Both the position numbers and the translations under genes were made by a program. Source: Pseudomonadota bacterium (GTDB lineage Bacteria > Pseudomonadota > Gammaproteobacteria > Burkholderiales > Gallionellaceae). From it: a DNA stretch of 64,000 bases. The DNA is taken from assembly GCA_021848465.1 (NCBI GenBank), contig JAJZUP010000002.1:1-64000 (forward strand), in the 5' to 3' direction. Below, piece after piece: positions 1,347-62,226 of the stretch. The number at the start of each line of letters is the position of its first letter. Within the stretch, counting starts at the first letter, position 1. The notes beneath the pieces are model-generated. The model made no database searches, was not told where the DNA came from, and saw only the letters and a list, made by a program, of their open reading frames with translations.

Positions 1347-3538
1347 TGCCCCGCCGTAATCATCTTTTGTTCGCGATTGCCGAGCTGGTGCACCAAGCGC
1401 TGCACGTCGAGGATCAGCGCGACTTCGCCGCTGCCGAGGATGGTGAAGCCGCCGATGCCACGCACGCCGCCGAATACCTTGCCGAGCGGTTTGATGACGG
1501 TCTGGAATTCGCCCATCAGTTTGTCCACGACCAGCCCGGCTTTCTGCCCGGCATATTGCACGACGACGACGTTTTCGCGGCGCGGCGGAGTACCTTCCAC
1601 TTCGAACATGTCGCGCAGGCGCAGGTAGGGCAGCACTTCGCCGCGCAGGTTGAGGTAGCCGCGCTCGGCATTGGCAGTTGCATTGCGCTCGGCGTCGCTC
1701 ATTTCGATGCATTCCAGCACCATGTCGAGCGGCACGACATAAGCGGCATTGCCGACGCCGACCAGGAAGCCGTCGATGATGGCGAGCGTGAGCGGCAGGC
1801 GGATGCGCATGGTGGCGCCCTTGCCCATTTCGGATTCGATGTCGACAGTGCCGCGCAACGCCTGGATGTTGCGGCGCACCACGTCCATGCCGACGCCGCG
1901 GCCGGACAGGTTGCTGACGGCATCGGCGGTGGAGAAGCCGGCTTCGAAGATCAGGTTGTAAATTTCGGCATCGCTGAGCTGCTGCTCGGGCTTGACCAGG
2001 CCGCGCTCGATGGCCTTGGCGAGGATCTTGTCCTTGTTGAGGCCGCCGCCGTCGTCGGATACCTCGATGACGATGCTGCCGGAATCGTGGTAAGCGTTGA
2101 GCTTGAGCGTGCCTTGCGCGGGCTTGCCGCGCGCAAGGCGTACTTCGGCGGATTCGATGCCGTGGTCCATGCTGTTGCGCACCAGGTGGGTGAGCGGGTC
2201 GCCGATTTTCTCGACCACGGTTTTGTCCAGCTCGGTTTCCGCGCCGCTGATTTCCAGGCGGATGTCCTTGCCCAGCTCCTTGCTGACGTCGCGCACCACG
2301 CGCTGGAATTTATTGAAGGTGGCGCCGATCTGCACCATGCGCAACGACAATGCGGAGTCGCGCACTTCCTCGACCATGCGCGACAGGGTGGCGGTCGACT
2401 CGATCAGGTCGGCCTGACCGGAACGCAGCGCAGCCAGGCTGGCGCCCGCGCCGGCGATGATCAGCTCGCCGACCAGGTTGATAAGCTGGTCGAGCTTGGC
2501 CGCGTCCACGCGGATCAGGCTGCTTTCGGAAGTTTTGGTTTCCTTGACCTGCTTCTGTTTTTGCAGGGCGGCCTCCACCACCGGGGCCTGTACGATGTGC
2601 TGTTCCACCAATGCCTCGCCAATTTTCACCGGTGCGCCGCTTTCCTGTTGCTGCTGGAGCATTTTCTCCAGCTCGCACTGGGTCAGCGTACCGCACAGCA
2701 CGAGGATTTCGCCGAGACGCATATCTTCTTCGGGCAGGTCCTGGATCAATGCCAGGTATTCGCCGATCTTGCTGTTGGGCGGCAGGATGCGGATCTGGCA
2801 ATCGTCGCGCACGAACTCAAACACGCCTTCGATGGTGCTCTTGTCGGCAGCCGAGTTGAATGCGATTTCAAACCCCAGGTAGCAGGTTTCCGCGTCCATT
2901 TCCTTGAGCGGCGGAATCGAGTCGATCAGGGTGACGATGTGGACAATGCGCCCGAGTGTGGCGAGATACCGGATAAAGGAGAGCGGGTCCATGCCGTTGC
3001 GCAAGACATCCTTGCCAAAGCGCAGGGATATATGCCAGTTGTCGGATTCAACTGCACTTCCGCCCTCCTTCCCGATTTTATGGTCGAGTTCAGCGGGTAC
3101 GCCCGCTTTTTTTTCCTCGCCTTTCTTGCCCTCCGTTTTCTTTTCCTTGTTGCCCAGATAGGCGCCCAGCCGCTCCATGATGGCGATGCTCAAATCGGCG
3201 CTCTCTGTGTTCGGCTCTTCACCCTTGGCGGTATGTCCCACCAGCGTGCCGATATGGTCGGCGGATTCCAGCAACAAGGCGGCAAGATCGCCGTCGATAT
3301 GCAGCTCGCCGCTGCGCACGCGATCCAGCACGCTCTCGGCCACATGAGTGAATGAGACAATGTAATCCAGACCGAACAGGCCCGCCGAGCCCTTGATGGT
3401 GTGCGCGGCACGGAAAATGTCATTGATGATGTCCGGATCGTCCGGGTCCTGCTCGATACGCAACAGCGCCGCTTCCATTTGCTCCAGCAGTTCACCGCTT
3501 TCGATGATGAAGGTCTTGAGTGCCTCGTCCAGATTCAT
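1343..3538 (-). CDS. cheA: Chemotaxis histidine kinase CheA
   Basis: 731 aa; Hpt box AAHTIKGSAGLFGLD, LVGELIIAGAG dimerization region, VRNSMDHGIE N-box, GRGVGMDVVRRNI, C-terminal CheW-like domain. Confidence 0.95.
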   Translation of the reverse strand: MNLDEALKTFIIESGELLEQMEAALLRIEQDPDDPDIINDIFRAAHTIKGSAGLFGLDYIVSFTHVAESVLDRVRSGELHIDGDLAALLLESADHIGTLVGHTAKGEEPNTESADLSIAIMERLGAYLGNKEKKTEGKKGEEKKAGVPAELDHKIGKEGGSAVESDNWHISLRFGKDVLRNGMDPLSFIRYLATLGRIVHIVTLIDSIPPLKEMDAETCYLGFEIAFNSAADKSTIEGVFEFVRDDCQIRILPPNSKIGEYLALIQDLPEEDMRLGEILVLCGTLTQCELEKMLQQQQESGAPVKIGEALVEQHIVQAPVVEAALQKQKQVKETKTSESSLIRVDAAKLDQLINLVGELIIAGAGASLAALRSGQADLIESTATLSRMVEEVRDSALSLRMVQIGATFNKFQRVVRDVSKELGKDIRLEISGAETELDKTVVEKIGDPLTHLVRNSMDHGIESAEVRLARGKPAQGTLKLNAYHDSGSIVIEVSDDGGGLNKDKILAKAIERGLVKPEQQLSDAEIYNLIFEAGFSTADAVSNLSGRGVGMDVVRRNIQALRGTVDIESEMGKGATMRIRLPLTLAIIDGFLVGVGNAAYVVPLDMVLECIEMSDAERNATANAERGYLNLRGEVLPYLRLRDMFEVEGTPPRRENVVVVQYAGQKAGLVVDKLMGEFQTVIKPLGKVFGGVRGIGGFTILGSGEVALILDVQRLVHQLGNREQKMITAGQ

Positions 3539-3585
3539 GATCTATCCCTTTTCTACAAATTGTTCTTCCCCGTGGGGACATTTTT

Positions 3586-3816
3586 CGGCGGGAGCGCCCC
3601 GAGTTTCTGTAGGAGCGAATTTATTCGCGAATGCGCCCTGCGCTTCCCACCAAACCTTCGCGGTTGAAACCGCTCCCACAAAACCACCGCACCCTGTGGG
3701 AGCGAATTTATTCGCGAATGCGCACTGTGCATCTCACTAGCCTTCGCGGTTAAAACCGCTCCTACAAAATCACCGCACCCGTGGGAGCGGCTTCAGCCGC
3801 GAATGCGCCTTGCGCC
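3586..3816. repeat. REP/BIME-like palindromic repeat cluster
   Basis: Multiple gtgggagcg(g/a)...cgcgaatgcgc and ccttcgcggttgaaaccgctcc units between cheA and the STAS gene. Confidence 0.8.
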
Positions 3817-3818
3817 AT

Positions 3819-4133
3819 TCAGTCGTTCTGGTGCAGCACAACCTGGTCGCCAAAGAAGCTGCCGAGGTCGCACAGGTCGATGATGTCGAGCACGGCCTTG
3901 CTGTGGCCGACATAGCGCAAGGTCTTGCTGCGCAGGATCGCCTCCAGCTTGGCGGCGACCATGAGCTGCACGCCGGCGGCATCAATCTCGGTCACGCGCG
4001 ACAAATCGATTTCGATTTCTTCGTGTTCCGCCACGGCGGGAATGATCTGTTCGCGCAGGTTGCTCACTGCGTAAATCGTCATCTCGCCCTCAATCGGGAA
4101 ATACACAACCCCGGCAGTTCCATTGCGTCCCAT
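3819..4133 (-). CDS. STAS-domain (anti-sigma factor antagonist-like) protein
   Basis: 104 aa; IEIDLSRVTEIDAAGVQLMVAAKLEA typical STAS motif. Confidence 0.85.
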   Translation of the reverse strand: MGRNGTAGVVYFPIEGEMTIYAVSNLREQIIPAVAEHEEIEIDLSRVTEIDAAGVQLMVAAKLEAILRSKTLRYVGHSKAVLDIIDLCDLGSFFGDQVVLHQND

Positions 4134-4171
4134 GTTTTCCTCCTGTGTTATATCTGCGCCCCGGATTCAGA

Positions 4172-4540
4172 TCAGGGCAATACCAGCTTAGATACGGCCG
4201 TCAGCATCTGCGCCGGCTGGAATGGCTTGACCACCCATGCCTTGGCGCCGGCGGCCTGACCTGCCTGCTTCTTGTCCTCACCCGCTTCGGTAGTCAGCAT
4301 GATGACCGGCGTGAATTTGTATTCCGCCTTTTTCTTGGCCTCGGTGACGAAAGTGATGCCATCCATGTTGGGCATGTTCACATCGCTGATGATCAGGTGG
4401 ATCTTCTGACCGTTCAGCTTGCCCAGTGCATCCTTGCCGTCACATGCTTCGATGATGTCGTAGCCCGCGCCCTTGAGTGCGATGCTCACCACTTGGCGCA
4501 GGGATGCCGAGTCGTCTACTACGAGGATAGTTTTTGCCAT
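4172..4540 (-). CDS. cheY: Chemotaxis response regulator CheY
   Basis: 122 aa single REC domain: KTILVVDDSASLRQVV...LIISDVNMPNMDG...VKPF. Confidence 0.9.
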   Translation of the reverse strand: MAKTILVVDDSASLRQVVSIALKGAGYDIIEACDGKDALGKLNGQKIHLIISDVNMPNMDGITFVTEAKKKAEYKFTPVIMLTTEAGEDKKQAGQAAGAKAWVVKPFQPAQMLTAVSKLVLP

Positions 4541-4552: not shown

Positions 4553-5818
4553 CTAAAAAAACGTGATTTCAGATTCCTGTTGCTGCTTTTTCTGCTCCGC
4601 CAGGCCGCCGCTATAGGTATCGCCGTTGTGCACCTTGAATTGCTCGGGCATGGTGTAAGTCTGGGAAAGCTCGCCCAGCCAGGAGTGCGCGTCGATCGGC
4701 GATACCGCTCGCCCTGCGGCCAAGTCTTTTTCGCTTTCATCAAGATGTTTTTCGAGCTTGGTCAAGTCGTCACGCACGTGACTCAATATCTGGCTGACGC
4801 GGTCCTGAAATTGCAGCGACACCAGCACGTCGCTGATTTCTTCGCCGATGACCTGCCCCTCCTTGCGCAACACGTCGGCGGACTGTTCCAGCCCGGTGGC
4901 GGCCTGCTCGAATTGATGCAGCACGCTGGCGATCACCTCGGCGGAATTGCTGACCATGACGGCATCCTGGCGGGAGAACTCTTCCGAGGCATGCAGTGTG
5001 GAGGCGATCGCGTTGTTGACGGTCTCGACGGTCGTCGCGATTTTCTTGCCACTTTCCGCCGATAGCGTGGAGAGCTTGCGCACTTCATCGGCCACCACGG
5101 CGAATCCGCGCCCGACCTCGCCGGCGCGCGCCGCTTCAATCGCCGCGTTCAGGGCCAGCAGGTTGGTCTGTCCGGCGATCTTGCTGACATCGGCGGCCAT
5201 GCCTTTCAACGAATCCGTCAGGCTGGCCAGTTCCTGCACCTCATGCAGCAAAGTCTGCTTGCCCGCAAGCGCGGTGCGCATCGATTCGACCACGCCATCC
5301 AGTTCCTGGTGGCAGCGTTTCAGCAAGTCAACCAGTTCCGGTTGTTGCGCGGTTCCGCTGCCATGCGACAAGTTAAGCGCCTTTTCCAGTCCTTGCGACA
5401 AAGTTGCAAAACGGTTCGCAAGGCTGATCGTGGATTCTTCGGTATGCAGGCGCGCCATGTCGATCTGGCGATACCAGACCGGCAACACTTCAGTACACAG
5501 GTCATCCAGCCCGCTGATACACCCGTTTTTCTTGCTGCACAGGCTACCGGACAGCCTGGCCTGCTCCTCCTGCACGGCGGTTTGCACGGCGGCCCTGTGG
5601 CGAGATGAAATCCAGGGAACGGCAAACAATGCCGCCAGTAACGGCACTGCCGCCAGCAACACTGAGGTGATTTCCAGCGCGCCTGAGGCCAGTACCGCCG
5701 CGCTGCCGACTGCGGCAACCAGCCATACCGGCACCGCAATCCATCCGATCAAGGCAACACCGGAAAGGCTTTCCTTCATGCCAGCGTCAGACATTTCTTC
5801 CTGTAGGGTAAAACTCAT
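4553..5818 (-). CDS. Methyl-accepting chemotaxis protein with short N-terminal TM region
   Basis: 421 aa; signalling hairpin [32 protein letters not shown]. Confidence 0.92.
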
Positions 5819-5874: not shown

Positions 5875-5937
5875 ACAGTCAGGAAATCTTGATTTTTTTG
5901 TAGTCAAATTACACGGGGGTAGGGAGATTCCTACACG
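5875..5937 (-). promoter_or_regulatory. Candidate promoter/regulator element upstream of MCP gene: caggaaatcttgatttttttgtagtcaaattacacgggggtagggagattcctac
   Basis: Shared block with 8131-8185 and 20170-20233; GTAGGGA-GA-TTCCTAC near-palindrome. Confidence 0.5.
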
Positions 5938-5997: not shown

Positions 5998-6078
5998 GCA
6001 AGTGGGAGCGAACTTGATCGCGAATGCGCACGACAAACACCTAAAACCCTTCGCGGTTAAAACCGCTCCTACAAAACC
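5998..6078. repeat. REP-like repeat
   Basis: gtgggagcgaacttgatcgcgaatgcgcacgac...cttcgcggttaaaaccgctcctacaaaacc. Confidence 0.75.
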
Positions 6079-6092: not shown

Positions 6093-8123
6093 TCAATCTG
6101 CCTCCGCAGGACGGAAGCTCACCTCAATCACGGAGTGGTGTTCGAGTTCGCTGAAGATGCGCATTTCGCCGCCATGCGCACGGATGCGCTCCTGCATCAC
6201 CATCAGGCTTGGGGGAATTTGGCTGAAAAAATCTCCGGGGAGGATGTGCCCGTCATAGCGAATACCCAGCACGCAGTTGCGCCCGTCACTCTTCCAGCTC
6301 ATCAGTACCCGGCTCATCCCAACCACCTTGGCGGCATGATCGAGCACTTCTTCCGCCGCGCGGAATACCAGCAGCGCGACCTGGTCATCCAGCGGCATGC
6401 CGGTTTCGCTCACCTGGAGCTGGCAGGAAATTTCCGGCTGCTTGTTGTATTCCATGACCAGCCACTCCAGCGCAGGCGCAATGCCAAGCTGCAATGCGGT
6501 CGGGCGCAACTCGGAAACCAGCTCGCGTATCACCTTCAATGACTTGTCGATCAGTTCGCCCATCTCCAGGCTGAGTTCGCGCAAAGCGGAATTCTCCCTG
6601 GGAAATTGCATGCGCATCCCGTACAGGTGCATTTTCTGCGCTGCCATCAACTGGGCAAGTTCCTCGTTCATCTCCCAGGCGATGCGCTTGCTCGTCTCCT
6701 CGCGCTTGTTTTCGCGTATCAGCACCGCCTCGCGTAATCTTTGCTGCATCTCCTGCAGTTTCTGTTCCACAATTTTTGTCGCCGTGATGTCCTGCACCGT
6801 GCCGGACGATGCCAGGGGTTTTCCCTCTGCGTCGAAGGTTGTCTCGCAACGCTCGCGCACATGCTTGATGTTTCCTCCCGGCAGCAGCAGGCGATGCTCG
6901 ATGCTGTAGGGCGTACGGGTTTCCAGCGAGTGCCGGTAGGCTTGGTCGACGGCGGCGCGATCCTCCGGATGGATTGCCTCAAGGAAGGCCGCATACGAGG
7001 CGCCGAATTGGTTCCGGTCGATTTCAAAAATCCGGAAGATTTCATCCGACCAGCTCAGCGTACCCGTCACATGATCCAGGTCCCAGCTCCCCATCTGGCC
7101 GATGCGTTGCGCCTCTTCAAGGCGCGCATGGCTTTGCATCAGGGCTGCCTCCACACGTTTTCGCTCGCCGATGTCATGCATGAAGCCATGCCATAACACG
7201 CCGCCATCCGCCCCCGACTGTGGCAACGCGCGCGCTTCCAGCCAGATGCGGCCCTTGGACGGATGCTGCACCCTGAATTCAACATGCAGCGGCGCAAGCC
7301 TGGCGGCGGACTGCGCCATCGCGTCGAAAAACAACTTGAGGTCTTCCGGGTGAATGCACAGGTTGAGTTTCGAAATATCTCCGGCCACATCTTCCGGTTG
7401 CAACCCGAACAAATCCCGGATACCGGCGCTAGCGAACGGCATCGCGTTGCTGCCGTCGGCACCGTGGCGATAGGTAAAGAAAAAGCCCGGTGCGCTGGCC
7501 GCAAATCCGGAAAAGCGCTCTTCCAGCCTGCTGCGTTCCAGCAACTCGCGCTCGTACAAGGCGCGCGCCGTCATGTCCCGCGCAAAACACAGCACATGCG
7601 TGATGCCGCCATCGTCCGCCATCGGAACCAGGCTGATCGCGAACAGGCAATCTTCTGCACCGCCGCTGCAATAAAGCTCAGCCTCGTAATGCACCTGCAT
7701 GCCGGACTGCACCGCTTTGCGCAAATGCTCATCCAGGTGCAGCAACACCAGTTGCATGCGCGGCGTATTGATGCGACGCGCCACCTCATCGAACGGCACC
7801 CCGGCCAAACCCATTCGATCCGGATCGAATGCCTGCTCGGCGGCCGGATTCAGGCTCTCGAAACGAAAGGTCTTGTCGCGCCCGACCTCCACGACGAACA
7901 CCGCATCCGAGGCGTTTTCGAAAATTTCATGATAACGGCGGTTGGCGCGCTCATCCTGAATATCCGTCTCAAGCTGCGCCAGCCTGCGTGACGCATGCCG
8001 GAAATACAGCGTCGTGCTGAACAGCAAGACGATCATAACGATGAGCAGGAAATAAACCATGAGTTGGCCGCCAGGCACACCAATGCATATTAAATGGGCG
8101 CGCACTTTGCCTGACTTGCCCAT
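6093..8123 (-). CDS. Multi-PAS sensor protein with degenerate HisKA_3/HATPase module (predicted pseudo-histidine kinase)
   Basis: 676 aa; PAS/PAC motifs (DITATKIVEQKLQEMQQ); expected H-box reads RIAWEMNEELAQ (His to Asn), N-box and G-boxes degraded. Confidence 0.85.
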   Translation of the reverse strand: MGKSGKVRAHLICIGVPGGQLMVYFLLIVMIVLLFSTTLYFRHASRRLAQLETDIQDERANRRYHEIFENASDAVFVVEVGRDKTFRFESLNPAAEQAFDPDRMGLAGVPFDEVARRINTPRMQLVLLHLDEHLRKAVQSGMQVHYEAELYCSGGAEDCLFAISLVPMADDGGITHVLCFARDMTARALYERELLERSRLEERFSGFAASAPGFFFTYRHGADGSNAMPFASAGIRDLFGLQPEDVAGDISKLNLCIHPEDLKLFFDAMAQSAARLAPLHVEFRVQHPSKGRIWLEARALPQSGADGGVLWHGFMHDIGERKRVEAALMQSHARLEEAQRIGQMGSWDLDHVTGTLSWSDEIFRIFEIDRNQFGASYAAFLEAIHPEDRAAVDQAYRHSLETRTPYSIEHRLLLPGGNIKHVRERCETTFDAEGKPLASSGTVQDITATKIVEQKLQEMQQRLREAVLIRENKREETSKRIAWEMNEELAQLMAAQKMHLYGMRMQFPRENSALRELSLEMGELIDKSLKVIRELVSELRPTALQLGIAPALEWLVMEYNKQPEISCQLQVSETGMPLDDQVALLVFRAAEEVLDHAAKVVGMSRVLMSWKSDGRNCVLGIRYDGHILPGDFFSQIPPSLMVMQERIRAHGGEMRIFSELEHHSVIEVSFRPAEAD

Positions 8124-8130: not shown

Positions 8131-8185
8131 TATCAGGAAATCTTGTTTTTTTTGTAGGGAAAACTCACCGGGGTAGGAAAAGTCT
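8131..8185 (-). promoter_or_regulatory. Candidate promoter/regulator element upstream of pseudo-kinase: tatcaggaaatcttgttttttttgtagggaaaactcaccggggtaggaaa
   Basis: Near-identical block to 5875-5937. Confidence 0.5.
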
Positions 8186-8189
8186 GACC

Positions 8190-8655
8190 CCAAGTGGGAG
8201 CGAGTTTACTTAGGAATGCTCGCTGCGCTCACTACAGCCCTTCGCGGTTGAAACCGCTCCTACGCAAACCAGCCACCCCCTGTGGGAGCGGCTTTGATGA
8301 AACTACTAGCCAATCCACTGATGAAGCAACTGGCCATCTCACTAAGCCGCAGAAAACGCGGCAAGTGATTGGTCATAAGCACGATACGACTGTGCAAGTG
8401 GCTGGTTACAGCCGCGAATGCGCATTGTGCATCCCAAACCCTTCGCGGTTGAAACCGCTCCCACGAAAACCTGCGCGCCCTGTGGGAGCGGCTTTAGCCG
8501 CGAATGCGCACTGTGCATCCCGAACCTTCGCGGTTGAAACCGCTCCCACGCAAACCAGCTTCCCTGTTGGAGCGGCTTCAGCCGCGAATGCGCATTGTGC
8601 ATCCCAAACCCTTCGCGGTTGGAGCCGCTCCTACGCAATCCAGCCGCTCCTACAA
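8190..8655. repeat. REP/BIME cluster, including an interrupted unit (8296-8409)
   Basis: At least four tandem REP-pair units; one interrupted by gatgaaactactagcc...gtggctggttac. Confidence 0.8.
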
Positions 8656-8684
8656 AAAACGCCACATTACTGGCGGCTTGTCTC

Positions 8685-9317
8685 TCACTCAATCAGGTTG
8701 TAGTCGGCCGCATAGCGGATCAGCTCCGCGTTGCTCTGGAAATTCATTTTCTGCATCAGCCTGGCCTTGTGGGTGCTGACGGTCTTGTTGCTGATGAACA
8801 ATTCTTCGGCGATTTCGTTGATGCCCAACCCCTTGGCAAACAGCTTCAGGATGTGCATCTCCCGCTCTGACAGGCGTTCATGGGGTGCCGCTTCATTCTG
8901 GCTCGGCTTTTCGAACATCATCAGTTCGGCAATCGAGGGGTCGATATAGCGCCCGCCAGCCGACACCTTGCGAACCGCATCCATCAGCACATCCTGCATG
9001 CTGCCCTTGGTGACAAAGCCGGAAGCGCCGGCTTGCAGCACGCGCTTGGCGATCTGCAACTCGTTATGCATGCTGAGCACAAGGATGGGCAACTCCGGGT
9101 TCTGCTCGCTTATCTGCCCGATCAGGCCGACCCCGCTGACCCCCGGCATGGTCAGGTCGATCAGGATCAGGTCGTATTTATCCTTGCGCAGCTTCTCCAT
9201 TGCCTCTGCGCCATTGACCGCCTCGCCCGCCACAACGATATCGCCCATCAGCTCAAACAGCTGCTTCAGGCCATTACGCACGATCACATGGTCGTCTGCA
9301 ATCAAAACTCTAATCAT
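8685..9317 (-). CDS. NarL/FixJ-family response regulator (REC + LuxR HTH)
   Basis: 210 aa; DLTMPGVSG phosphoacceptor; LSEREMHILKLFAKGLGINEIAEELFISNKTVSTHKARLMQKM. Confidence 0.93.
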   Translation of the reverse strand: MIRVLIADDHVIVRNGLKQLFELMGDIVVAGEAVNGAEAMEKLRKDKYDLILIDLTMPGVSGVGLIGQISEQNPELPILVLSMHNELQIAKRVLQAGASGFVTKGSMQDVLMDAVRKVSAGGRYIDPSIAELMMFEKPSQNEAAPHERLSEREMHILKLFAKGLGINEIAEELFISNKTVSTHKARLMQKMNFQSNAELIRYAADYNLIE

Positions 9318-12300
9318 GATTTCACCTTTCCATTGTTCGCCGGAATGCGCACTTCGACTTCAGTGCCTTTCCCGCGTTTGCTCGTAATTCCGACATGCCC
9401 GCCCAGCATCAGCGCACGTTCCTGTATCCCGACAAGCCCGTACGACCCGGTTTTCCGGGCCTGGGCATCGAACCCCTTGCCGTTATCCTTCACCTTGAGC
9501 ACATACTCGCTGCCCCACATCCCAAAGCTGATATTGACGCGCGTCGCCTGCGCGTGGCGCGACACGTTGGTCAGCGACTCCTGCACAATGCGGAACAAGG
9601 CAATGGCCTGCTTTTCGTCCAGACTGATTTCGTCCTCCGCCAGATCCAGCTTGCACAGGATGCCGGTATTCGCTCCGAAGCGCCCGGCCAGCCACTCCAG
9701 CGCGGACTGGATACCCATGTCCAGCGCGGCTGGGCGCAGCGACGAGGCCACGTTGCGCGCCACGGCCAGCGCCTGGTCGGTCAGTCCCTTGGTATCTTTC
9801 AGGTGCGTCTTGAGTTCTGGAAGTCCGGGGGAAAACTTATGATCCAGTACTGACACACTCAATTGCAGTCCGGTCAATATCTGGCCCAGTTCATCATGCA
9901 CTTCGCGGGCAATATGTTTGCGCTCTTCTTCACGTGCGGCTTCACGACTCGCGCTCAGCCCGCGCAGCAACTCGCGCGACTCCTGCAGGTCCTGCTCAGT
10001 TTGCTTGAGAACCGTAATGTCACGCGAAATTCCGATCAGGCGGCTGACCCGCTCACCGTGGTAAATCGGTGTCATGGTCGAGTAGTAATAGCGCTTGCCG
10101 AGCGGCACATCCAGCGCAATCTCCTCTGTAAGCGTTTCCCCGGAAGCAGCGCAACGCCGGTATTTATCGATCACCGCCGCCGCGACTTCGGGAGGCACCG
10201 TCTCCTCGACATATTTCCCGATCAGTTGCTCGCGCGGAATGCCGGTGGAGGCAGCCAGCGCCGGATTGATCTCGATGTTGCGGAAGCGCCCGTCCGGCGT
10301 CACCTCCAGCAGGTACATGCCCTCGACCGCATTGTCGAAGATTTCGCGGTAACGCTGCTCGCTTTCCTGCAGGGCGCTTTCAGCCTGCTTGCGTTCGGAA
10401 ATATCCCGCACAGTCGTCAGGTGCAGCGTTTCGCCCTCATAAGTGAATGCGGTCGCGCCCACCTCAACGGGGAATATCTCACCATTCTTGCGCCGGTGGC
10501 TCGATTCGATGGTTCTATGAGCATCACCGCCTGCCACCGTCTGTTTCATCACTTCCTGCATGATTTCGCGCGTGAGATTGTGGTCAATGTCCAATACGGT
10601 CATCGCCAACAGTTCCTCGCGGCTGTATCCCAGCTCCCGCACGGCAGCTTCGTTGACATAGCGGAAGCGCAAGTCTTCGTCGATGAGGTAGGCGGCATCG
10701 AAAGAGTTATCCATCGCGCGGTTGAGCAAATGCAGCTCACGCTCGGCGCGCTTGCGCTCGGTGATGTCGCGTACCATGGCGAGATTGAAAGCTCTCCCGC
10801 CATAATTCATGTGGGAGATATTGATCTCCACCGGAATGATGCAGCCATCCTTGTGTCGGTGCTCGGCTTCGATGGTAACCGCCCCAGCCTCGCTTATCGC
10901 GCGCCAGCTTTCCGCCATCACCTCGGGCGTCCAGCCCGGCGCGATGTCCATGACGGTCATGCCGAGCAGTTCTTCCCGGCTATAGCCGAGCATGCGGCTG
11001 GCTTCTTCGTTGACATAGAAAAAACCACCGTATTCATCGACGAAATACGCGGCTTCGTGCGCATGATCGATAGCGGCCCCCAGCATGGCGAGTTGCAGCT
11101 CGGCCTGTTTGCGCTCGGTAATATCCATGAGTGAAACCAGCACCCTGGACCACGGTTTCCCGCTATCCGGCGCGATCGAGAAATGCACCGCGACATGTCG
11201 CGGCTCGCCCGTCAGGGTCTGCACCACAGCATCAAGCTTCATCTCTGTTTTGCCACGCCACAGGCCAATCAGTTCCTCGCGAAAAGCCCGGAATGAGTCC
11301 GGCGTGAAGGTTTGCTTCAAGCCCGCGAACAATTCCTCCTTGCTGTGTGCCTGGTGCAATGCTACAGCGGCCTGATTAACATCGACGACACGCGCCAGCT
11401 CGGCGCAATGCCCGACAGCGTCGGGATGTGCGTCGAACCAGGCTTCAATATCCTCAATGCCGGATTTCTGCAACTCATCAAAATAAACCCGTACCGCCGA
11501 GAAATCCTCTTCCCAGATGGACACCGGCGAGTTCTCGAACAACTGGCGGTAACGCTGTTCGCGCTCCCGGATCGCGGCATCGACAAGCTTCTGTTGGGTG
11601 ATATCGCGGCCGATGGCCAGCGCCCCGATGACATTTCCCGCTTCGTCGCGCTCAGCAACGAAGCGGATATGATGGTAGCGAATGGCATCACCAACACCCG
11701 GAATGACCAGCTCCATTTCTCCCGGCCGCCCTGTCTCTATGGTCCGCTGCAACATGGCCTGATAATCGAAATACATATCTCCCGGTGCGATTTCCATTGG
11801 AGTCATGTCGATCCGCTCCGCCAGTGTTTTGCCGAGGATCTTCAGCAGGCTGGAATTCATGTAGATAATTCGACACTGTTTGTCGTAGCGGGCAATGTTG
11901 TCCGGCAAGTTTTCCGCCAGCGTGCGGAATTCGCGTTCGCGTGCAGCCAGCTCCGCCGTGCGTTCTGCCACGCGGCGCTCCAGCTCCTCGTTATGTTCCG
12001 CCAGTTTTTTTTGTGCCGCACTCAATTTCAGATGGGTGTCCACCCGCGCCATGATTTCGTCGATCTGCAACGGCTTGGTGACATAGTCGACCGCACCGGC
12101 GCGGAAACCTTCCACCTTTTGCTCGGGCATGGCCAGCGCTGTCATGAAAATCACCGGAATGTCGCGTGTGCTGTCCTGAATTTTCAACCTGCGGCAAGTT
12201 TCGAAGCCGTCAATGCCGGGCATCATCACATCGAGCAGGATCAGGTCCGGTTGCAGCAATTGCGCGCGCCGCATACCTTCCTCGCCGTCCTGCGCGATGG

Positions 12301-12403
12301 ATACGCGATAACCGCGATCTTCGAACAGGCTTACCACCACGGCCAGGTTGCTCGGGGTGTCGTCCACGATCAGGATGGTGGAAAGTGCATTCACTGGCCT
12401 CAT
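9314..12403 (-). CDS. REC-multi-PAS sensor histidine kinase (HisKA_3 type)
   Basis: 1029 aa; N-terminal REC (ILIVDDTPSN...DVMMPGIDG), several PAS/PAC, AREEERKHIAREVHDELGQ; overlaps both neighbouring genes by 4 nt. Confidence 0.92.
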   Translation of the reverse strand: MRPVNALSTILIVDDTPSNLAVVVSLFEDRGYRVSIAQDGEEGMRRAQLLQPDLILLDVMMPGIDGFETCRRLKIQDSTRDIPVIFMTALAMPEQKVEGFRAGAVDYVTKPLQIDEIMARVDTHLKLSAAQKKLAEHNEELERRVAERTAELAAREREFRTLAENLPDNIARYDKQCRIIYMNSSLLKILGKTLAERIDMTPMEIAPGDMYFDYQAMLQRTIETGRPGEMELVIPGVGDAIRYHHIRFVAERDEAGNVIGALAIGRDITQQKLVDAAIREREQRYRQLFENSPVSIWEEDFSAVRVYFDELQKSGIEDIEAWFDAHPDAVGHCAELARVVDVNQAAVALHQAHSKEELFAGLKQTFTPDSFRAFREELIGLWRGKTEMKLDAVVQTLTGEPRHVAVHFSIAPDSGKPWSRVLVSLMDITERKQAELQLAMLGAAIDHAHEAAYFVDEYGGFFYVNEEASRMLGYSREELLGMTVMDIAPGWTPEVMAESWRAISEAGAVTIEAEHRHKDGCIIPVEINISHMNYGGRAFNLAMVRDITERKRAERELHLLNRAMDNSFDAAYLIDEDLRFRYVNEAAVRELGYSREELLAMTVLDIDHNLTREIMQEVMKQTVAGGDAHRTIESSHRRKNGEIFPVEVGATAFTYEGETLHLTTVRDISERKQAESALQESEQRYREIFDNAVEGMYLLEVTPDGRFRNIEINPALAASTGIPREQLIGKYVEETVPPEVAAAVIDKYRRCAASGETLTEEIALDVPLGKRYYYSTMTPIYHGERVSRLIGISRDITVLKQTEQDLQESRELLRGLSASREAAREEERKHIAREVHDELGQILTGLQLSVSVLDHKFSPGLPELKTHLKDTKGLTDQALAVARNVASSLRPAALDMGIQSALEWLAGRFGANTGILCKLDLAEDEISLDEKQAIALFRIVQESLTNVSRHAQATRVNISFGMWGSEYVLKVKDNGKGFDAQARKTGSYGLVGIQERALMLGGHVGITSKRGKGTEVEVRIPANNGKVKS

Positions 12404-15400
12404 GGGAGGAACCCTTCAACAAAATTGAGAATAGCCTGGGACTGGAACTCGCTGGCAAGGCGCTTCAGGTGTTCCGCGAACGGTTGGTAGCGCGCATCGA
12501 GTGCAGCAATATGCCCGGCCTGCTGCACAATGTCGCGCATGTTCCCGAGCAGCGCCAAACGGTGCAGCTCCCGAATTTCGGCCAACGGCGGCGCGGTCAT
12601 TTGAGCCGGGGCTGCGACAGCCCCTTCCGCTACGCCCTGCGGAATATCGGCGACGGAAACGGGCAATAAGTCCGCCTCGATATTCGCCGCAGGCAGTTCC
12701 AGTTCAAAACGGAAGGTGCTGCCGTCGCCGGGGCGGCTTTCAACTGCAATGTCGCCTCCCATCAAGCGCACCAATCGCCGGCTGATCGTCAAACCCAGGC
12801 CGGTGCCGCCGCTCTTTCCCCTGGCCTCGCCCACCTGCTCGAACGACTGGAAAATCTTCTCGCGGTCAGCCGCGGCGATTCCAACCCCGGTGTCGGACAC
12901 GCTGAACGCCAGCCGGGTTGGCGACTTGCGCTCGACTGCAAAAACCACTTTGCCTTGCTCGGTAAACTTGACTGCATTGGACAACAGGTTCAGCAGCACC
13001 TGGCGCAGCCGGCGCTCGTCACCACGCACGCCATCCGGCAAATCCTGTGCAAATTCGCAGACAAGATCGAGATTCTTTTGCCGGGCCTTGACGCCGATGA
13101 TCCCGGCAACACTGTTCAGGAGGCGGAGCAATGGTAAATCGCCGATATACAATTCCAGCCTGCCGGACTCGATGCGCGCCAGGTCGAGAATGTCTTCAAT
13201 CAGCGCCAGCAGGTGCTCGCCGCTCTGGCGGATCACTTCCATGCTGGCAAATTGCCGGCTATCGAGCTTGCCATCGCGTTCCAGCATCTGGGCATAACCG
13301 AGAATGCCGTTCAACGGCGTGCGCAACTCATGACTCATATGGGCGATGAATTCGCTGCGCATATCCGCCAGGCGCTGCGCCTCGACCAGCGCCGCCTCGC
13401 GCGCCTGCTCGTATTGCTTGCGCGCGGAGATGTCGCGGATCACTCCCACCAGCATCTGTTTGCCGTCCGAGGCGACAAACGGGGTCTTCTTGGTCTGGAT
13501 GTGGTGCGTCACGCCGTCTGACGAAGTGATTGTCTCCTCGTTCAGGTTCACTTCGCCGGAACCGAACACGAGTTCGTCCTTCGCCCAGAATTCGTCGGCC
13601 TCGTTCTTCGGAAAAATCTCGTAGTCCGACTTGCCGAGCAGCGTTCCGCGCGGATGGCCAATGAAGGAATAAAACGCGTTGTTCAGCAGCATCCAGCGAT
13701 GTAGCCTGTCTTTGACGAAGATCGGGTCGGGTACCGCGTCGATCACGCTGTCGAGGAAGTTGCGCGAATCCTCGAGTTGCGCCTCCATGCGCTTGCGCTG
13801 GGAAATATCGCGCGACAGCACCAGGAAGGTTCCGCTGGCCTTCTGCGAAACGGAAAGTTCGAACCAGTTCGTTTCCTGCCGATCGAGTGCGATGGTCTTG
13901 CCGAACGACACCCCTGTCTGACCGGCCTCGCGCAAGGCCTCCAGCACCGTGGCCGCCGCCGTGGGAGCGAGTATCTCGCTCACGGTGCGGCCCAGCAACA
14001 CATCCTTCTGCGCTGCCAGCAATTCCGGCGTATGCGTCCAGACATTCAGGTAGCGGCCGTCACTATCCATCTCGAACAGGATGTCTGGAATCGCATTGAT
14101 GACACCTTCGGTGAACTCCAGCGCCTCCTTCAGTTTCAGCTCGACTTCCTTGCGCTCGGTGGTATTCAGCACGAAGATCGTCATGCCGATCACTTCGCCG
14201 TGATCGCCATAGATCGGCGCACCGAAATTGTCGTGGTATTCGCGCACCGGTTTGCCATCTTCGATGCGCTCTTCCGTAGATTCCAGGTAGCCGTGGTTAC
14301 CCGCCAGCACATGATCCGCGCCTTGCCTGAAGAGTTGACGGTGCGCCTCAGTATCGATCGCATCGAGCACGCTCATGCCCGGCTCGATTTCCGCATTCCA
14401 AAGCCGTTTGGCCGCTTTCCTGAAGCGATTGTTGAAAGCCAGCAGGCGATAGTCGCGGTCGATCGCATAGATTGAAACGCTGTCGGACGGGCTCTCGATG
14501 ATGGTTTGCAGCAGGTTGTAGTTGTAACGGTAGCGCGCTTCGCTTTCCTTCAGCGCATCTTCCATGCGCTTGCGCTCGGTAATGTCGTGCACATAGCCGT
14601 ACCAGACCACCCCGCCTTCTGGATGCGGGTGCGGATTGGTATTCCCTTCCATCCAGCGCTCACCCTTGAGCGGATGAATAATGCGGTATTCGCAATGCCA
14701 CGGAGTCATCGTGCGCGCCGATTCTGCGATGCTGTCCATCACCCGCTGCGCATCGTCCGGATGATTTAGCCGCAACAGCGGGGTTGCATCCTCAACAACC
14801 TCTTCCGGTCGAACCCCGAACTGTTCGTAGATGTTCGGTGAAACATAGGGCATGCACACTGTGCCGTCGGGCTTCTGGTAAAAGCTGCCCACCATGCCGG
14901 GCGAGGATTCCGCGAGCGCGCGCAACTCGCGTTCGCGCTCGCCGAGTGCCTCTTCCAACAGCTTGCGTTCCGTGATGTCGCGCGACAACGCGAGAAAGGT
15001 TGCGTCACCCGGCTCATTCCCTGATTTCCTGGACAATGTGTGGGCAAACCAGCGCTGACCGCCCGGCACATCAATCAGGATGTCCTTGCCTTGCGCATAT
15101 CCCTTCTCGTCAGCCTCTCGGATAGCCTCCATAGCTGCAGCGGCATTCTCCGGGGAAAGCACCTCATGAACGGTCTTGCCCAGAAGCGACTCCCTCTGTG
15201 CCGCCAACAAATCGGGATTTTGTGTCCATACGTTCAGGTAGCGACCCTCGCGACTCATCTCGAGCAGGACATCCGGAATGGCATTGATGACACCCTCGCT
15301 GAATTCCAGCGCCTCCTTCAACCGCTGCTCTGCCAGCACGCGCTCGGTTATATCCTGCATCATGCCTACAGCACGCAGCAGGACGCCTTCCGGACTGCAT

Positions 15401-17517
15401 ACGATTTCGCAGCGCTCATGTACATACTTGACCCGACCGTCCGGCATCAGCAGGCGGTGCGTACTTTCATAGGGGCGTCCCGTTTCGACAGAATCGAGAT
15501 AAGCTTGCGCAATCGCGTCTCGATCCTTGGGATGGGTGGCATTCATGCACCCCTCGTAGGATGCGCCATCCTTCATCGGATCGATCTCGTAAATGCGGAA
15601 CAGCTCGTCAGACCAGACATGCACGTCGTTGACGATGTCGTATTCCCAACTGCCGACCAGGGCGATGCGTTGCGCTTCAGCCATCAACTGGCGGCTCTCT
15701 CGCAGCGCGTTTTCCATTTCCTTGCGATCGCTGATGTCCTGCACTGTTCCGATGGAACGCAGCGGTTTTCCGACAGCGTCATAGATCGTTTCGCAGCGCT
15801 CGTGAACGAACTTGATCCGGCCTCCGGGCAGCAGCAGGCGATGTTCGAGTTCAAAGGGCCGGTGCTGCGCCAGCGATGTCTTGTAGGCGGTATCGAGCAA
15901 CTGGCGGTCATCCGGATGCACGGTCTCCATGAACGCTTCATAGGAGGCGCCGAACTCGCTACGCTTGATCTCGAAAATACGGTAGATTTCGTCCGACCAG
16001 GTAAGGACGTTATCGACCAGATTGTTTTCCCAACTGCCGACATGGGCGATGCGTTGCGCTTCGTTCAACGACTCGCGGCTCTGTTGCAATTCCTCGGTGC
16101 GTTCCTGCACGCGCTGCTCCAGCCCGATATTCAATTGGCGGATTTCCTCGCTGGAGCGGCGCAGACGCAACACGAAATACGCCGTCAGCATCAGCAATGC
16201 CAGAGTCGCCCCGAGCACGGTCCACAACTGCTTCTGACGCGCCTTCTGGCGTTCGCTGGACAAGGTCAGCGCGTCAATCTGTCGTTGTTTGCTATCACGC
16301 TGGAAGCGCTCGGACAAGTCATGGATGCGCTTGCCGGCCTTTTCACTCTCCAGTTTATCGTTAAGCCGCGCCGCTTCAGCGGAATAACGATAGGCCAAGC
16401 GGTATTGACCTTCCGCCGCAGCCAGATCCGCCAGGCGCCGCGCGCTGCCGGCCTGATAGACCGTAAAACCGATCTTTTGCGCAAACTCGTTGGCGCGTTC
16501 GGCATCCTTGCGCGCCGCCCCCATGTGTCCCATCGTTTGGAGCAGGTAACTGCGCTTGGTCAGCGACCACCACAGGCCGATCGGGTTGTTGTGCTTTTCA
16601 TACAGCGCGACATCCTCATCCAGCAAGACCTGGGCCGTACGCAACTGGTTGGCATTCATGTAACGGTCTGCAAGAGTAAAGACCGCGTGCGCCACATACA
16701 AGGGTGCCCCCGCCTGGCGGAACAGTGCCAATGACTGTTCGGTGATGCGGATGGCCTCGACATGATTTTTTTTGCTGACGCTGAATTCAGCCATGCCCAA
16801 AACGGCGGCGGCTTCCAACAGTCTGGAATGTGCCTGGCGCGCCGCTTCCTGCATGCTCCGGTAATGCTCGTACGACAGCTCAAACAGCCCGCTCTGTGAA
16901 TAGGCGACCGCCATGCCCTGCTCGGCATAAGCCCGGGCCAGCGGACTATCGTTGCGTTTCGCTATGTCCAGGGACTGCATCGCGATTGTGGCCGCTTCGT
17001 CCTGATGACCGAAGCGCAAATACATCATGGCGACATGGAACATAACCTCGGCGCGCAAATCCTCGCGCTGGACGCTTTCCAGCAGGTTCATCGCGTCTTC
17101 CACCGCCGCCCGCATGTCATCAAGACGCCCCTGGTTGATGGCGCTGGAAGACACCACCAGGTCGGCCTCGATCTGGCCGACCGGGTCGTTATCCTGCTTG
17201 GCCAGCAGGTGGGCCGTGGCGCTATGCTGCGCAGATTCTTCGATCAAGCCCAGGTAAAGCTCGATGCGCGCACGTAAATTGAACATCCGCGCCTGGTCGT
17301 TGCCGGTGACCTCAACCGGGGCTTCGACTTGCAGGCGCCGCACTTCGCGGTACGCGGCCGGCGCATCGTTTTCGGCGAGCTCGCGTACCTCTGCAACCTG
17401 CGCGCGCCATGTCTCCAGTCTGCCCGCTTGCGCCGCCGACGGACACCATAAAACACAAGCCAGCATGAGGCCCGGCAGGATGCCACGGTGGAAGCGGGAG
17501 TACGGTATTGGCATCAT
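12400..17517 (-). CDS. Large sensor histidine kinase: signal peptide, periplasmic TPR-like region, TM, multiple PAS, HisKA-HATPase
   Basis: 1705 aa; VLWCPSAAQA signal, helical TPR-like repeats, TM LWTVLGATLALLMLTAYFVLRL, HMSHELRTPLNGILGYAQML, GTGLGLTISRRLVRLMGG. Confidence 0.92.
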   Translation of the reverse strand: MMPIPYSRFHRGILPGLMLACVLWCPSAAQAGRLETWRAQVAEVRELAENDAPAAYREVRRLQVEAPVEVTGNDQARMFNLRARIELYLGLIEESAQHSATAHLLAKQDNDPVGQIEADLVVSSSAINQGRLDDMRAAVEDAMNLLESVQREDLRAEVMFHVAMMYLRFGHQDEAATIAMQSLDIAKRNDSPLARAYAEQGMAVAYSQSGLFELSYEHYRSMQEAARQAHSRLLEAAAVLGMAEFSVSKKNHVEAIRITEQSLALFRQAGAPLYVAHAVFTLADRYMNANQLRTAQVLLDEDVALYEKHNNPIGLWWSLTKRSYLLQTMGHMGAARKDAERANEFAQKIGFTVYQAGSARRLADLAAAEGQYRLAYRYSAEAARLNDKLESEKAGKRIHDLSERFQRDSKQRQIDALTLSSERQKARQKQLWTVLGATLALLMLTAYFVLRLRRSSEEIRQLNIGLEQRVQERTEELQQSRESLNEAQRIAHVGSWENNLVDNVLTWSDEIYRIFEIKRSEFGASYEAFMETVHPDDRQLLDTAYKTSLAQHRPFELEHRLLLPGGRIKFVHERCETIYDAVGKPLRSIGTVQDISDRKEMENALRESRQLMAEAQRIALVGSWEYDIVNDVHVWSDELFRIYEIDPMKDGASYEGCMNATHPKDRDAIAQAYLDSVETGRPYESTHRLLMPDGRVKYVHERCEIVCSPEGVLLRAVGMMQDITERVLAEQRLKEALEFSEGVINAIPDVLLEMSREGRYLNVWTQNPDLLAAQRESLLGKTVHEVLSPENAAAAMEAIREADEKGYAQGKDILIDVPGGQRWFAHTLSRKSGNEPGDATFLALSRDITERKLLEEALGERERELRALAESSPGMVGSFYQKPDGTVCMPYVSPNIYEQFGVRPEEVVEDATPLLRLNHPDDAQRVMDSIAESARTMTPWHCEYRIIHPLKGERWMEGNTNPHPHPEGGVVWYGYVHDITERKRMEDALKESEARYRYNYNLLQTIIESPSDSVSIYAIDRDYRLLAFNNRFRKAAKRLWNAEIEPGMSVLDAIDTEAHRQLFRQGADHVLAGNHGYLESTEERIEDGKPVREYHDNFGAPIYGDHGEVIGMTIFVLNTTERKEVELKLKEALEFTEGVINAIPDILFEMDSDGRYLNVWTHTPELLAAQKDVLLGRTVSEILAPTAAATVLEALREAGQTGVSFGKTIALDRQETNWFELSVSQKASGTFLVLSRDISQRKRMEAQLEDSRNFLDSVIDAVPDPIFVKDRLHRWMLLNNAFYSFIGHPRGTLLGKSDYEIFPKNEADEFWAKDELVFGSGEVNLNEETITSSDGVTHHIQTKKTPFVASDGKQMLVGVIRDISARKQYEQAREAALVEAQRLADMRSEFIAHMSHELRTPLNGILGYAQMLERDGKLDSRQFASMEVIRQSGEHLLALIEDILDLARIESGRLELYIGDLPLLRLLNSVAGIIGVKARQKNLDLVCEFAQDLPDGVRGDERRLRQVLLNLLSNAVKFTEQGKVVFAVERKSPTRLAFSVSDTGVGIAAADREKIFQSFEQVGEARGKSGGTGLGLTISRRLVRLMGGDIAVESRPGDGSTFRFELELPAANIEADLLPVSVADIPQGVAEGAVAAPAQMTAPPLAEIRELHRLALLGNMRDIVQQAGHIAALDARYQPFAEHLKRLASEFQSQAILNFVEGFLP

Positions 17518-17520
17518 CGG

Positions 17521-20085
17521 TCAGTATCTGGCGGCCAATACGAGCGCCAACTGACGGTCGTTGCTGATTGAATTTTGCGGGCGGGTCTCGACACCGTAGT
17601 AGGAGGTGCGCACGGTGCCGAGCAGGTTATTGCCTTCCAGCGTCAGCGTGAGCTGCTGGCTGATGCGGTAGCTTACCGAGGCGTCCATCCAGCCGTACGC
17701 CTTGGTGTAGATCGGCAGCGCGCCCACCCCCGCATAATTACCCACCCCGCTCAGGAAAGTGTCGCGCCAGTTGTAGGCCAGCCGCGCGGAAAACTCGCCC
17801 AGCTCATACATGCCGACGACGTTGTAGCTGTGCGGCGACAGGTTTTGCAACGGCACGTTCAGCCCGAGCACGCTGTTCGGCGTGTCGCTGTCCACGTAGG
17901 TGTAATTGGCCTGCAAGCCCAGCCCCTTCATCCAGCCTGGCAGGAAATCGTAGAACTGCTGATAGCCTGCTTCCAGCCCGCGGATGTTGGCCGGATTGCT
18001 GTTCTGCGGGCGGCTCACCTGGTAGGTCACGCCGCTGTAGGTCTCGGCGTTGCTGACCGTAGTGACGAAGCCGTCCACGCGCTTGAAAAAACCGGTCAAG
18101 TACACCGAGGTGGTGTCGTTGAAATAGCGCTCAATGGCCAGATCATAGTTATCGGCGCGGATCGGGCGCAGGTTCGGGTTGCCGGCGGTGCCGTTCAACT
18201 GCACGGTATTCAACGTCAGCGAGGGCGACATCTGGTTGAAGTCCTGGCGCGTGATGGTCTTGGATGCAGCGCCACGCAGGTAAAGCCCGTCCTGCAGCCG
18301 GTAGCGCAGGTTGGCGCTGGGCAGGTAATCGACGTAATTGCTGCCCTGATTGATCGGCGTATACGGGCCAGCCGACGGGCCGCTATAACCGTCCATGCTT
18401 CCCTGGGTATTCACTATGCGCACCCCGGCATTGCCGTCCAGCGGCATTTCGTGCGTGGCGAGCTTGCCCATGAAGTACAACGCTTGCGTGTCTTCGGTCA
18501 TATCCCAGGTGCCGAGCGGATTGCTGGCCGGGATGGCGCTGGTGATGCCCAGCGTGGCGCGCGCGCCAGCCAAGTTGCGCGCAGCCTCCGGGTCGCCGAC
18601 CAGGTAACCGCCATAGGGACTGGTGATCGTCAGCGCTGACGCATTGGTCAGCACGCCGGAGGGGAAGCTGGTGACCTGCCCCGGCGCATCGCTGGCATGG
18701 CGACGCGCCACGCGCGCCCCGGCCAGCAGCGATTCCCAGGCACTGCCGGACAAGCGGTATTCGCCGTCCAGCCGCGCGGCGGTCTGGTCGGAATCGAACG
18801 GGCGCGCGGCATACCACATGCCGGTAGAACTGAAGCCGGACAAGGCCCCCAGGCTGCTGCCCATGCTGTACGAGGGTTGGCCGGGGCCGATGTCCTGGGT
18901 CACGGAGGCGGCGGTGCCGGTCAGCGTGATCGTCGAGTAGAACAGGTTGTTGTGGCTGCGGGTATAGCTGAGGTCGCTCTTCAGGGTGAGCGCGTCGTCG
19001 GTCCAGGTCCCGCCCGCCGCAAGCTGGGCAACCTGGTCGAGCGTATCGCGCGCGGCGCCCACCGTGGTGAGCGACATATTGCTCCAGGTGATGTGCTGCA
19101 AGTCATTCGTGCCGGGAAACAGCACCGGGCTGCCGGCTACGAATGTGGTGGGGGCCGATCCATATATCTGGTAGGTGTCCTGCCTGGTCTGGAATTCGCT
19201 ATAACTGCCTTCGGCGTACAGTTTGAGCGTGTCTTGCGGCGCCCACTCCACCATCAGGTTGACCGACTTGCGCTCGCGCGTGCCGACGTTGGTGCTTTCA
19301 TTGATGCCGTTCGGCACCACTACGGTTTGACCGGAAACAATGTTGGTACGCGAAACCGGGTTGCCTACGCCTTTCCAGTCTTCGCGGAAGGCACGTTTCT
19401 GGTAGGCCGCGTCGAGCAGCACGCCGATCTCGCCATGATCTTGACTCTGCCAGCGGTTGCTCGCCAGCATCGAATATTGCTGGGCATTTTGCTTGACGAG
19501 GTCGCCATACACCGTGCGCACCGTTCCCGCCAACGCCTTGCCGGGAAAGTCAAACGGACGCCGTGTGCGCATGTCAATCGTACCGCCCACGCCGCCCTCG
19601 ATGTGGTCGGCTGCGGAGGTTTTATAGACGTCAATGCCGGCGACCATTTCGGAGGGAATATCGGCAAAATCAAGCACTCGGCCATTGCCGGCGGTAAATA
19701 CTTCGCGCCCGTTCAGCAGGGTTTCCATCTGCGTCAAACCGCGGATCGCGACGCCGGAGCCTTCGCCGCGGTCGCGCAGGATTTGCACGCCGGTCACACG
19801 TGCCAGGGCATCGGTAACATTCGTGTCGGGGAGCTTGCCGATGTCGTCCGCCACCACCGAATCCACTACTTCCCTTTTGCGCTGCTTGATCGCCTGTGCC
19901 GAAACCAGGCTGGCACGCGTGCTGGTCACGACGACCACCGGAAGTGTCACCCCTGCATTATGGGCCTGCTGCTGTGCGGACACTGACGTATCCGCTTCCT
20001 CGGCTTGCGCTCCGGTCATGCCAATGGCATATGCAGCAGCCGCAATATGAACCGCCACCCCCATCTTCCCTGTTCGAGACACCAT
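17521..20085 (-). CDS. TonB-dependent outer-membrane receptor
   Basis: 854 aa; plug domain DDIGKLPDTNVTDALARVTGVQILRDRGEGSGVAIRGL, C-terminal barrel ending LALVLAARY; 3 nt from downstream kinase start. Confidence 0.92.
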   Translation of the reverse strand: MVSRTGKMGVAVHIAAAAYAIGMTGAQAEEADTSVSAQQQAHNAGVTLPVVVVTSTRASLVSAQAIKQRKREVVDSVVADDIGKLPDTNVTDALARVTGVQILRDRGEGSGVAIRGLTQMETLLNGREVFTAGNGRVLDFADIPSEMVAGIDVYKTSAADHIEGGVGGTIDMRTRRPFDFPGKALAGTVRTVYGDLVKQNAQQYSMLASNRWQSQDHGEIGVLLDAAYQKRAFREDWKGVGNPVSRTNIVSGQTVVVPNGINESTNVGTRERKSVNLMVEWAPQDTLKLYAEGSYSEFQTRQDTYQIYGSAPTTFVAGSPVLFPGTNDLQHITWSNMSLTTVGAARDTLDQVAQLAAGGTWTDDALTLKSDLSYTRSHNNLFYSTITLTGTAASVTQDIGPGQPSYSMGSSLGALSGFSSTGMWYAARPFDSDQTAARLDGEYRLSGSAWESLLAGARVARRHASDAPGQVTSFPSGVLTNASALTITSPYGGYLVGDPEAARNLAGARATLGITSAIPASNPLGTWDMTEDTQALYFMGKLATHEMPLDGNAGVRIVNTQGSMDGYSGPSAGPYTPINQGSNYVDYLPSANLRYRLQDGLYLRGAASKTITRQDFNQMSPSLTLNTVQLNGTAGNPNLRPIRADNYDLAIERYFNDTTSVYLTGFFKRVDGFVTTVSNAETYSGVTYQVSRPQNSNPANIRGLEAGYQQFYDFLPGWMKGLGLQANYTYVDSDTPNSVLGLNVPLQNLSPHSYNVVGMYELGEFSARLAYNWRDTFLSGVGNYAGVGALPIYTKAYGWMDASVSYRISQQLTLTLEGNNLLGTVRTSYYGVETRPQNSISNDRQLALVLAARY

Positions 20086-20169: not shown

Positions 20170-20233
20170 ACTATCAGGAATAGTAAGGGGGGTAGGGAAA
20201 TCCCTACAAATGGATGATAGGGATTTCCCTACA
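20170..20233 (-). promoter_or_regulatory. Two palindromic sites GTAGGGAAATCCCTAC (20192-20207) and TAGGGATTTCCCTA(C) (20218-20232) upstream of TonB receptor gene
   Basis: Direct reading; first is a perfect 7-2-7 inverted repeat; centres 25 bp apart. Confidence 0.65.

Positions 20234-60306: not shown

Positions 60307-62226
<1,920 letters not shown>

Follow-up and report, generated by a model that had tools for sequence, protein, structure and literature searches.

Within a 64,000-nt stretch of a Gallionellaceae genome (GCA_021848465.1, contig JAJZUP010000002.1, positions 1 to 64,000; hereafter the window, to which all positions refer unless a locus is named), four tightly packed minus-strand genes encode a TonB-dependent receptor (TBDR, 854 aa), a large histidine kinase with a tetratricopeptide repeat (TPR) sensor domain (HK1, 1705 aa), a second histidine kinase (HK2, 1029 aa) and a NarL-type response regulator (RR, 210 aa). 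We hold with moderate confidence that the block as a whole is a dedicated cell-surface signalling operon, in which the receptor would act through HK1, HK2 and the regulator on palindromic sites. Unrelated proteobacteria, among them Methylobacter and Duganella, carry the same set of genes, which therefore probably represents a real and apparently undescribed way to carry an outside signal through the envelope to the genes. The open reading frames (ORFs) coincide exactly with the four packed genes of the initial annotation, with a 3-nt gap between TBDR and HK1 and 4-nt overlaps between HK1 and HK2 and between HK2 and RR. With a stem-loop and T run just beyond the regulator gene and only one minus-strand sigma-70-like match within the block, a single transcript for the four genes is plausible; such matches are rarer in this region than in shuffled versions of it. 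On either side the TBDR gene is neighboured by HK1 and uvrB.

Linkage between receptor and sensor was assessed in a wide scan with an alignment of five TBDRs as query against about 85,000 species, each represented by a single genome. Retrieval was by the TBDR alone, leaving linkage to a TPR-bearing kinase unselected except for the four Duganella TBDRs within the query alignment. The scan yielded 44 loci, half of which (22) form one TBDR clade with the window (support 100/100). A TPR kinase is found in the same locus in 20 of these 22, mostly directly adjoining the TBDR (21 of 23 rows counting the window), and in none of the 22 outgroup loci (Sphingomonas, Hephaestia, Dyella and others); one of the two clade loci lacking it (L146) lies where its contig ends. 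The linked clade spans Methylococcales, Methylophilaceae, Oxalobacteraceae, Sphaerotilaceae and Halothiobacillaceae. The order seen in the window (TBDR, TPR kinase, REC-PAS-HisKA_3 kinase, NarL-type regulator) is identical in Methylobacter loci L117 and L119 (Methylobacter tundripaludum SV96), and Duganella carries the same set in the order RR, TPR-HK-REC, REC-PAS-HisKA_3, TBDR. In most loci that begin with the TBDR, its stop codon overlaps or abuts the start of the TPR kinase gene.

A TBDR 51% identical to that of the window occurs in genome G633 (from the family of G144), where its gene overlaps by 4 nt that of a TPR-PAS-HisKA-REC kinase with a TPR domain homologous to that of HK1, and a 56%-identical NarL regulator lies on the other side. 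Four further genomes of the same genus carry the TPR-PAS-HisKA-REC kinase at ~70% identity; the TBDR is present in all three in which the contig permits its detection, and G724 and G701 additionally carry a REC-PAS-HisKA_3 kinase. Distance matrices of TBDR and TPR domains are correlated across loci (r=0.77; 0 of 2000 permutations as high, the best reaching 0.31), a correlation that partly reflects shared species history. Since it recurs across families, the gene set is not a product of chance. Conservation in relatives, which had been set beforehand as a check, is seen once more distant genomes are searched and fails only within the family of the window.

Upstream of the operon, between TBDR and uvrB, two sites follow the palindromic consensus GTAGGGAWWTCCCTAC, at distances of 115 and 140 bp to the start of the TBDR. 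With at most one mismatch in the 14-bp core, the pattern occurs at three places in the 2.43-Mb genome, two of them being the sites before the TBDR and the third preceding a signalling gene of contig C7 by ~100 bp; a reversed control pattern gives no match. In relatives, 9 of the 75 sites among the matches listed are located within 2 kb of orthologues of the regulator (at least 50% identity) compared with 0.027 expected, an enrichment for which the p value is only indicative, given an approximated genome size and the relatedness of the genomes. A copy also lies between the RR and TPR kinase genes in the Duganella loci. No occurrence of the literal palindrome sequences was found in the open-licence literature. 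Judging from these comparisons, the palindrome is probably the operator of this regulator lineage. Together with co-inheritance across genera and the correlation of TBDR and TPR distances, the candidate sites in the TBDR promoter region bear out the initial view of the four genes as a single unit.

Several observations weigh against such an operon. Among 149 genomes of relatives, 89 of them from the family of the window, neither the TBDR nor the HK1 TPR domain occurs in any other sampled member of that family. HK2–RR-type pairs without a TBDR are common there, often adjoining a gene for a methyl-accepting chemotaxis protein (MCP), and the pair works in this family without TBDR and TPR. Within the linked clade, locus L130 retains TBDR, RR and a REC-HisKA_3 kinase and has no TPR kinase within 10 kb, and the NarL regulator or HK2 is missing beside the TBDR in L127, L120–L122 and L124 (with GGDEF/EAL outputs in L120–L122 and L124). 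Moreover, the Methylobacter loci arranged like the window lack the palindrome, which is therefore not universal. The cassette is rare and patchy: a contig scan with the single TBDR as query returned nothing, class-wide searches gave no further copies at the thresholds applied, and a TPR profile run against 399 genomes sampled evenly across the order was positive only in the genome of the window among the best candidates per genome.

The distribution within the family would suit two side-by-side units without cross-signalling, i.e., an ancestral HK2–RR pair controlling MCP/Che genes and an acquired pair of TBDR and TPR-bearing HK1. We consider this improbable, given that the four-gene set recurs in other families and several orders, that HK2 carries an N-terminal REC domain and none was found in HK1 by domain search, that L126 encodes a direct fusion of the TPR domain to PAS-HisKA_3-HATPase, followed by a regulator, and that the best two palindromes precede the TBDR and not the RR or MCP gene. 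One family member (G088) encodes an HK1-like kinase, a REC-PAS-HisKA_3 kinase and a regulator in the same order and with overlapping ends, without TPR and TBDR. In its first kinase the signal peptide is retained and the transmembrane segment closely similar, which looks like an apparent joint loss of sensor and receptor with the TPR part seemingly deleted. The G088 block (L038, 13404–19899) adjoins a FIST-domain gene.

The TBDR belongs over its full length to the TIGR01782 subfamily (645.6 bits vs. a cut-off of 310, residues 51–853) and consists of a plug, beginning at residue 73, and a barrel. A domain search gave no match to an STN signalling domain, and genes for a FecR anti-sigma or extracytoplasmic function (ECF) sigma factor neither adjoin the TBDR nor occur in the operon, which sets it apart from FecA-type transducers. 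No solved structure matching the receptor by sequence was found, and its structure model (pLDDT 79.3) displays likeness only to TBDRs in general.

In HK1, a signal-peptide-like N terminus precedes a single strong transmembrane segment, and the TPR domain between them is therefore predicted to be periplasmic. The Pfam TPR match is weak for the copy in HK1 itself, but the repeats are evident from homologues and from the fold model, an all-helical superhelix predicted by AlphaFold2 from 21 homologues (pLDDT 92.6, pTM 0.86). Solved structures matched by profile and fold include LGN, Rap and NprR, all of which bind peptides or proteins; LGN is the top match by E-value, and peptide-bound Rap proteins and NprR are among those with the largest whole-chain TM-scores (about 0.6–0.7). 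The modelled fold would fit the sensing of a protein surface or peptide, but these matches are generic for TPR superhelices. The NCBIfam model for FimS matches HK1 in its kinase region only.

Signal transfer beyond HK1 depends on how the REC domain of the soluble HK2 is used. The phosphorylatable residues of HK1, HK2 and RR are kept throughout (Table 1), and HK2 with its adjoining REC-GerE regulator corresponds to a NarL/UhpA-type pair. The presence of all four residues would permit the phosphorelay through the HK2 REC domain that had been proposed initially, running strictly from the HK1 His to the HK2 REC Asp, the HK2 His and the RR Asp. We nevertheless regard this route as very unlikely. 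No Hpt domain was matched in any of the four proteins, and many homologues of the TPR kinase carry their own REC domain, placed after HATPase and before the C-terminal segment. The position of HK2 is taken elsewhere by REC-PAS-GGDEF (L120), REC-PAS-GGDEF-EAL (L118 and L122) and REC-PAS-GAF-GGDEF-EAL (L124) proteins, fusions of REC-PAS to GGDEF or GGDEF-EAL also occurring in the L130 cassette, and L126 fuses TPR and HisKA_3 in one chain. To our knowledge there is no precedent for a REC domain handing phosphate to a HisKA_3 domain. Because REC-PAS precedes GGDEF/EAL in relatives and GGDEF cannot hand phosphate on, the HK2 REC domain is better read as a putative allosteric switch fed by HK1 than as a relay carrier. 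The recurring logic would be that of a TPR-HisKA kinase acting on a REC-PAS switch with an exchangeable output, and cyclic di-GMP (c-di-GMP) may be an alternative or additional output in loci with REC-PAS-GGDEF(-EAL) proteins.

In the signalling operon that we favour, the TBDR would bind, and perhaps import, an extracellular ligand, and the TPR domain of HK1 would read the signal in the periplasm, either from the imported ligand, as in PfeS, or from the periplasmic face of the receptor. Domain logic suggests that HK1, via HisKA, would phosphorylate the N-terminal REC domain of HK2 and that this domain would switch the PAS/HisKA_3 kinase, which, by analogy with NarX/UhpB-type pairs, would phosphorylate the regulator. 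Comparative genomics points to autoregulation through binding of RR to the GTAGGGAWWTCCCTAC palindromes before the TBDR; via weaker sites, the regulator may also bind ahead of an MCP/CheA chemosensory operon and of a small number of further signalling genes.

The first of these steps can be read in another way. In a Pfe-type, substrate-induced uptake system, the TBDR would import a nutrient or siderophore into the periplasm, the TPR kinase would bind the free ligand and the chief purpose would be induction of the transporter, without direct contact between receptor and kinase. This is a distinct possibility that overlaps the operon we favour, which leaves the step from TBDR to TPR either way. 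PfeS/PfeR and PeuRS provide precedents, TBDR homologues with ~39–40% identity adjoin glycoside hydrolase or sugar-catabolism genes in Sphingomonadales, the palindromes sit before the TBDR, and the TPR fold is overall closest to the peptide-binding Rap and NprR. However, genes for metabolism, inner-membrane transport or siderophores are not recurrent neighbours of the cassette in the loci read, the surrounding genes differ between lineages, and the outputs linked to it belong to chemosensory or c-di-GMP signalling and not to uptake. Since recurrent metabolic partners are lacking in these loci, a sensing role fits the cassette better than a role in uptake. Uptake, initially suggested as the event that is sensed, is at most a possible trigger; the cassette carries no metabolic genes. 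More tentatively, and with some doubt, we propose that this STN-less TBDR clade either touches the TPR superhelix of HK1 directly or delivers a peptide-like signal to it, the receptor serving as the sensor of a kinase cascade with chemosensory or c-di-GMP output and not for uptake. If true, an STN-less TBDR clade paired with a TPR kinase would constitute a third route of TBDR-driven transmembrane signalling.

Table 1 Coordinates of the four-gene block, candidate regulator sites and adjacent genes in the window
Feature	Position	Strand	Basis or remark
TBDR, TIGR01782 subfamily, no STN	17521..20085	-	ORF, domain search, tree clade 100/100
HK1: signal peptide, periplasmic TPR (predicted), TM 431-452, PAS array, HisKA (His1396), HATPase_c	12400..17517	-	ORF, domain search
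TPR sensor domain of HK1, residues 25-430	16228..17445	-	AlphaFold2 model, homologues in 20 loci
HK2: REC (Asp58), PAS array, HisKA_3 (His836), HATPase_c, no predicted TM	9314..12403	-	ORF, domain search
RR: NarL/FixJ-type response regulator, REC (Asp54), GerE HTH	8685..9317	-	ORF, domain search
Terminator-like hairpin and T run	8660..8677	-	just past RR stop at 8685
First candidate regulator site: perfect palindrome GTAGGGAAATCCCTAC, 115 bp before TBDR	20192..20207	.	
Palindrome ATAGGGATTTCCCTAC, second candidate site, 25 bp from first, 140 bp from TBDR start	20217..20232	.	
Degenerate palindrome GTAGGGAGATTCCTAC, two mismatches, 109 bp upstream of MCP gene	5919..5934	.	
MCP	4553..5818	-	then CheY-like, STAS, CheA genes
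HK3: membrane-anchored PAS/HisKA_3-like protein, between operon and MCP gene	6093..8123	-	

Among the genes beside the operon, that for the MCP is a likely second target of the regulator; it adjoins the regulator gene in relatives (L036, L037 and L051) or lies one gene away (L042). The window regulator probably controls this neighbouring chemosensory operon as well as its own. The genes downstream of the MCP (1343–4540, minus strand) encode CheY-like (4172–4540), STAS (3819–4133) and CheA (1343–3538) proteins. In HK3 the phosphoacceptor His is replaced by Asn (AWEMNEELAQ), and the N and G boxes are degenerate, the N box being lost; HK3 is likely a pseudokinase, and a homologue in L039 retains the His. 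A 52-nt promoter element, TCAGGAAATCTTG.TTTTTTTGTAG...GGGGTAGG, is located upstream of both MCP (5879–5930) and HK3 (8133–8184), the two copies being 81% identical and the MCP copy taking in the region of the degenerate palindrome. By eye, the same element (TCAGGAAATCTTGATTTT...GGGTAGGGA) was seen in the promoter of the C7 signalling gene, too (L164, about 1463–1515). MCP, HK3 and the C7 gene may form a small common regulon. Clusters of REP-like intergenic repeats, in which GTGGGAGCGGCTTCAGCCGCGAATGCGC alternates with CCTTCGCGGTTGAAACCGCTCC at a period of about 85 nt, occur at 3595–3815, 6002–6078 and 8180–8640. Farther along the window, the alpha and beta subunits of an alternate F1F0 ATPase are encoded at 56425–57948 and 60685–62220 on the minus strand (TIGR03324 and TIGR03305).

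A TBDR clade that stands almost always beside a TPR kinase, with a regulator or c-di-GMP enzymes as output, points to a main role of some TBDRs as receptors for external signals, and the cassette marks a receptor clade of methylotrophs and soil betaproteobacteria. The candidate operator, carriers available as isolates (M. tundripaludum SV96 and several Duganella) and the small number of phosphotransfer steps make it directly testable. No description of a TBDR with a TPR kinase system, second kinase and NarL output was found in the open-licence literature, and a recent review of TonB-dependent transporters makes no mention of kinases.

TBDRs are known to signal through FecR and ECF sigma factors, and in some cases they are coupled with simple two-component systems. 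Like FecA-FecR-FecI, the block has a TBDR within a signalling operon whose proposed signal path crosses the envelope; unlike that system, its TBDR lacks an STN domain and the operon lacks FecR and an ECF sigma factor. The hybrid two-component systems (HTCS) of Bacteroidetes are single-chain hybrid kinases with a periplasmic beta-propeller and an AraC output. With HTCS and their SusC/SusD partners the block shares a TBDR of a carbohydrate-type subfamily adjoining multidomain sensor kinases, but it has a TPR sensor and a separate NarL regulator, no SusD and no adjoining glycoside hydrolases, and does not belong to the SusC/HTCS type. UhpB/NarX-type HisKA_3 kinases with NarL/UhpA-type regulators resemble HK2 and RR in kinase core and regulator class, whereas HK2 is soluble and carries an N-terminal REC domain and a PAS array.

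A periplasmic TPR domain on a sensor kinase has a counterpart in FimS of the FimS-FimR system of Porphyromonas gingivalis, where it is thought to bind a polypeptide (PMC11053733); unlike HK1, FimS has a simple kinase build that lacks a PAS array, and that source does not describe it as paired with a TBDR. The initial annotation listed only FecR/sigma systems and HTCS as known routes and omitted TBDRs served by two-component systems, i.e., PfeRS/PfeA and PeuRS/PeuA. In the enterobactin system of Pseudomonas aeruginosa, the inner-membrane sensor PfeS reads the ligand in the periplasm after import by PfeA (PMC8001512), and in Vibrio parahaemolyticus peuRS lies directly upstream of peuA (PMC4141801). 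As in these systems, in which the TBDRs are under two-component control, the receptor gene of the window is adjoined by genes for a kinase and a regulator. Pfe and Peu, however, have one kinase each (PeuS with a 115-aa, Cpx-like extracytoplasmic loop) and a PfeR/CpxR-type regulator, in contrast to the large TPR sensor, the second REC-PAS-HisKA_3 kinase and the NarL-type regulator of the window, whose TBDR belongs to TIGR01782 and not to the ferric-enterobactin receptors.

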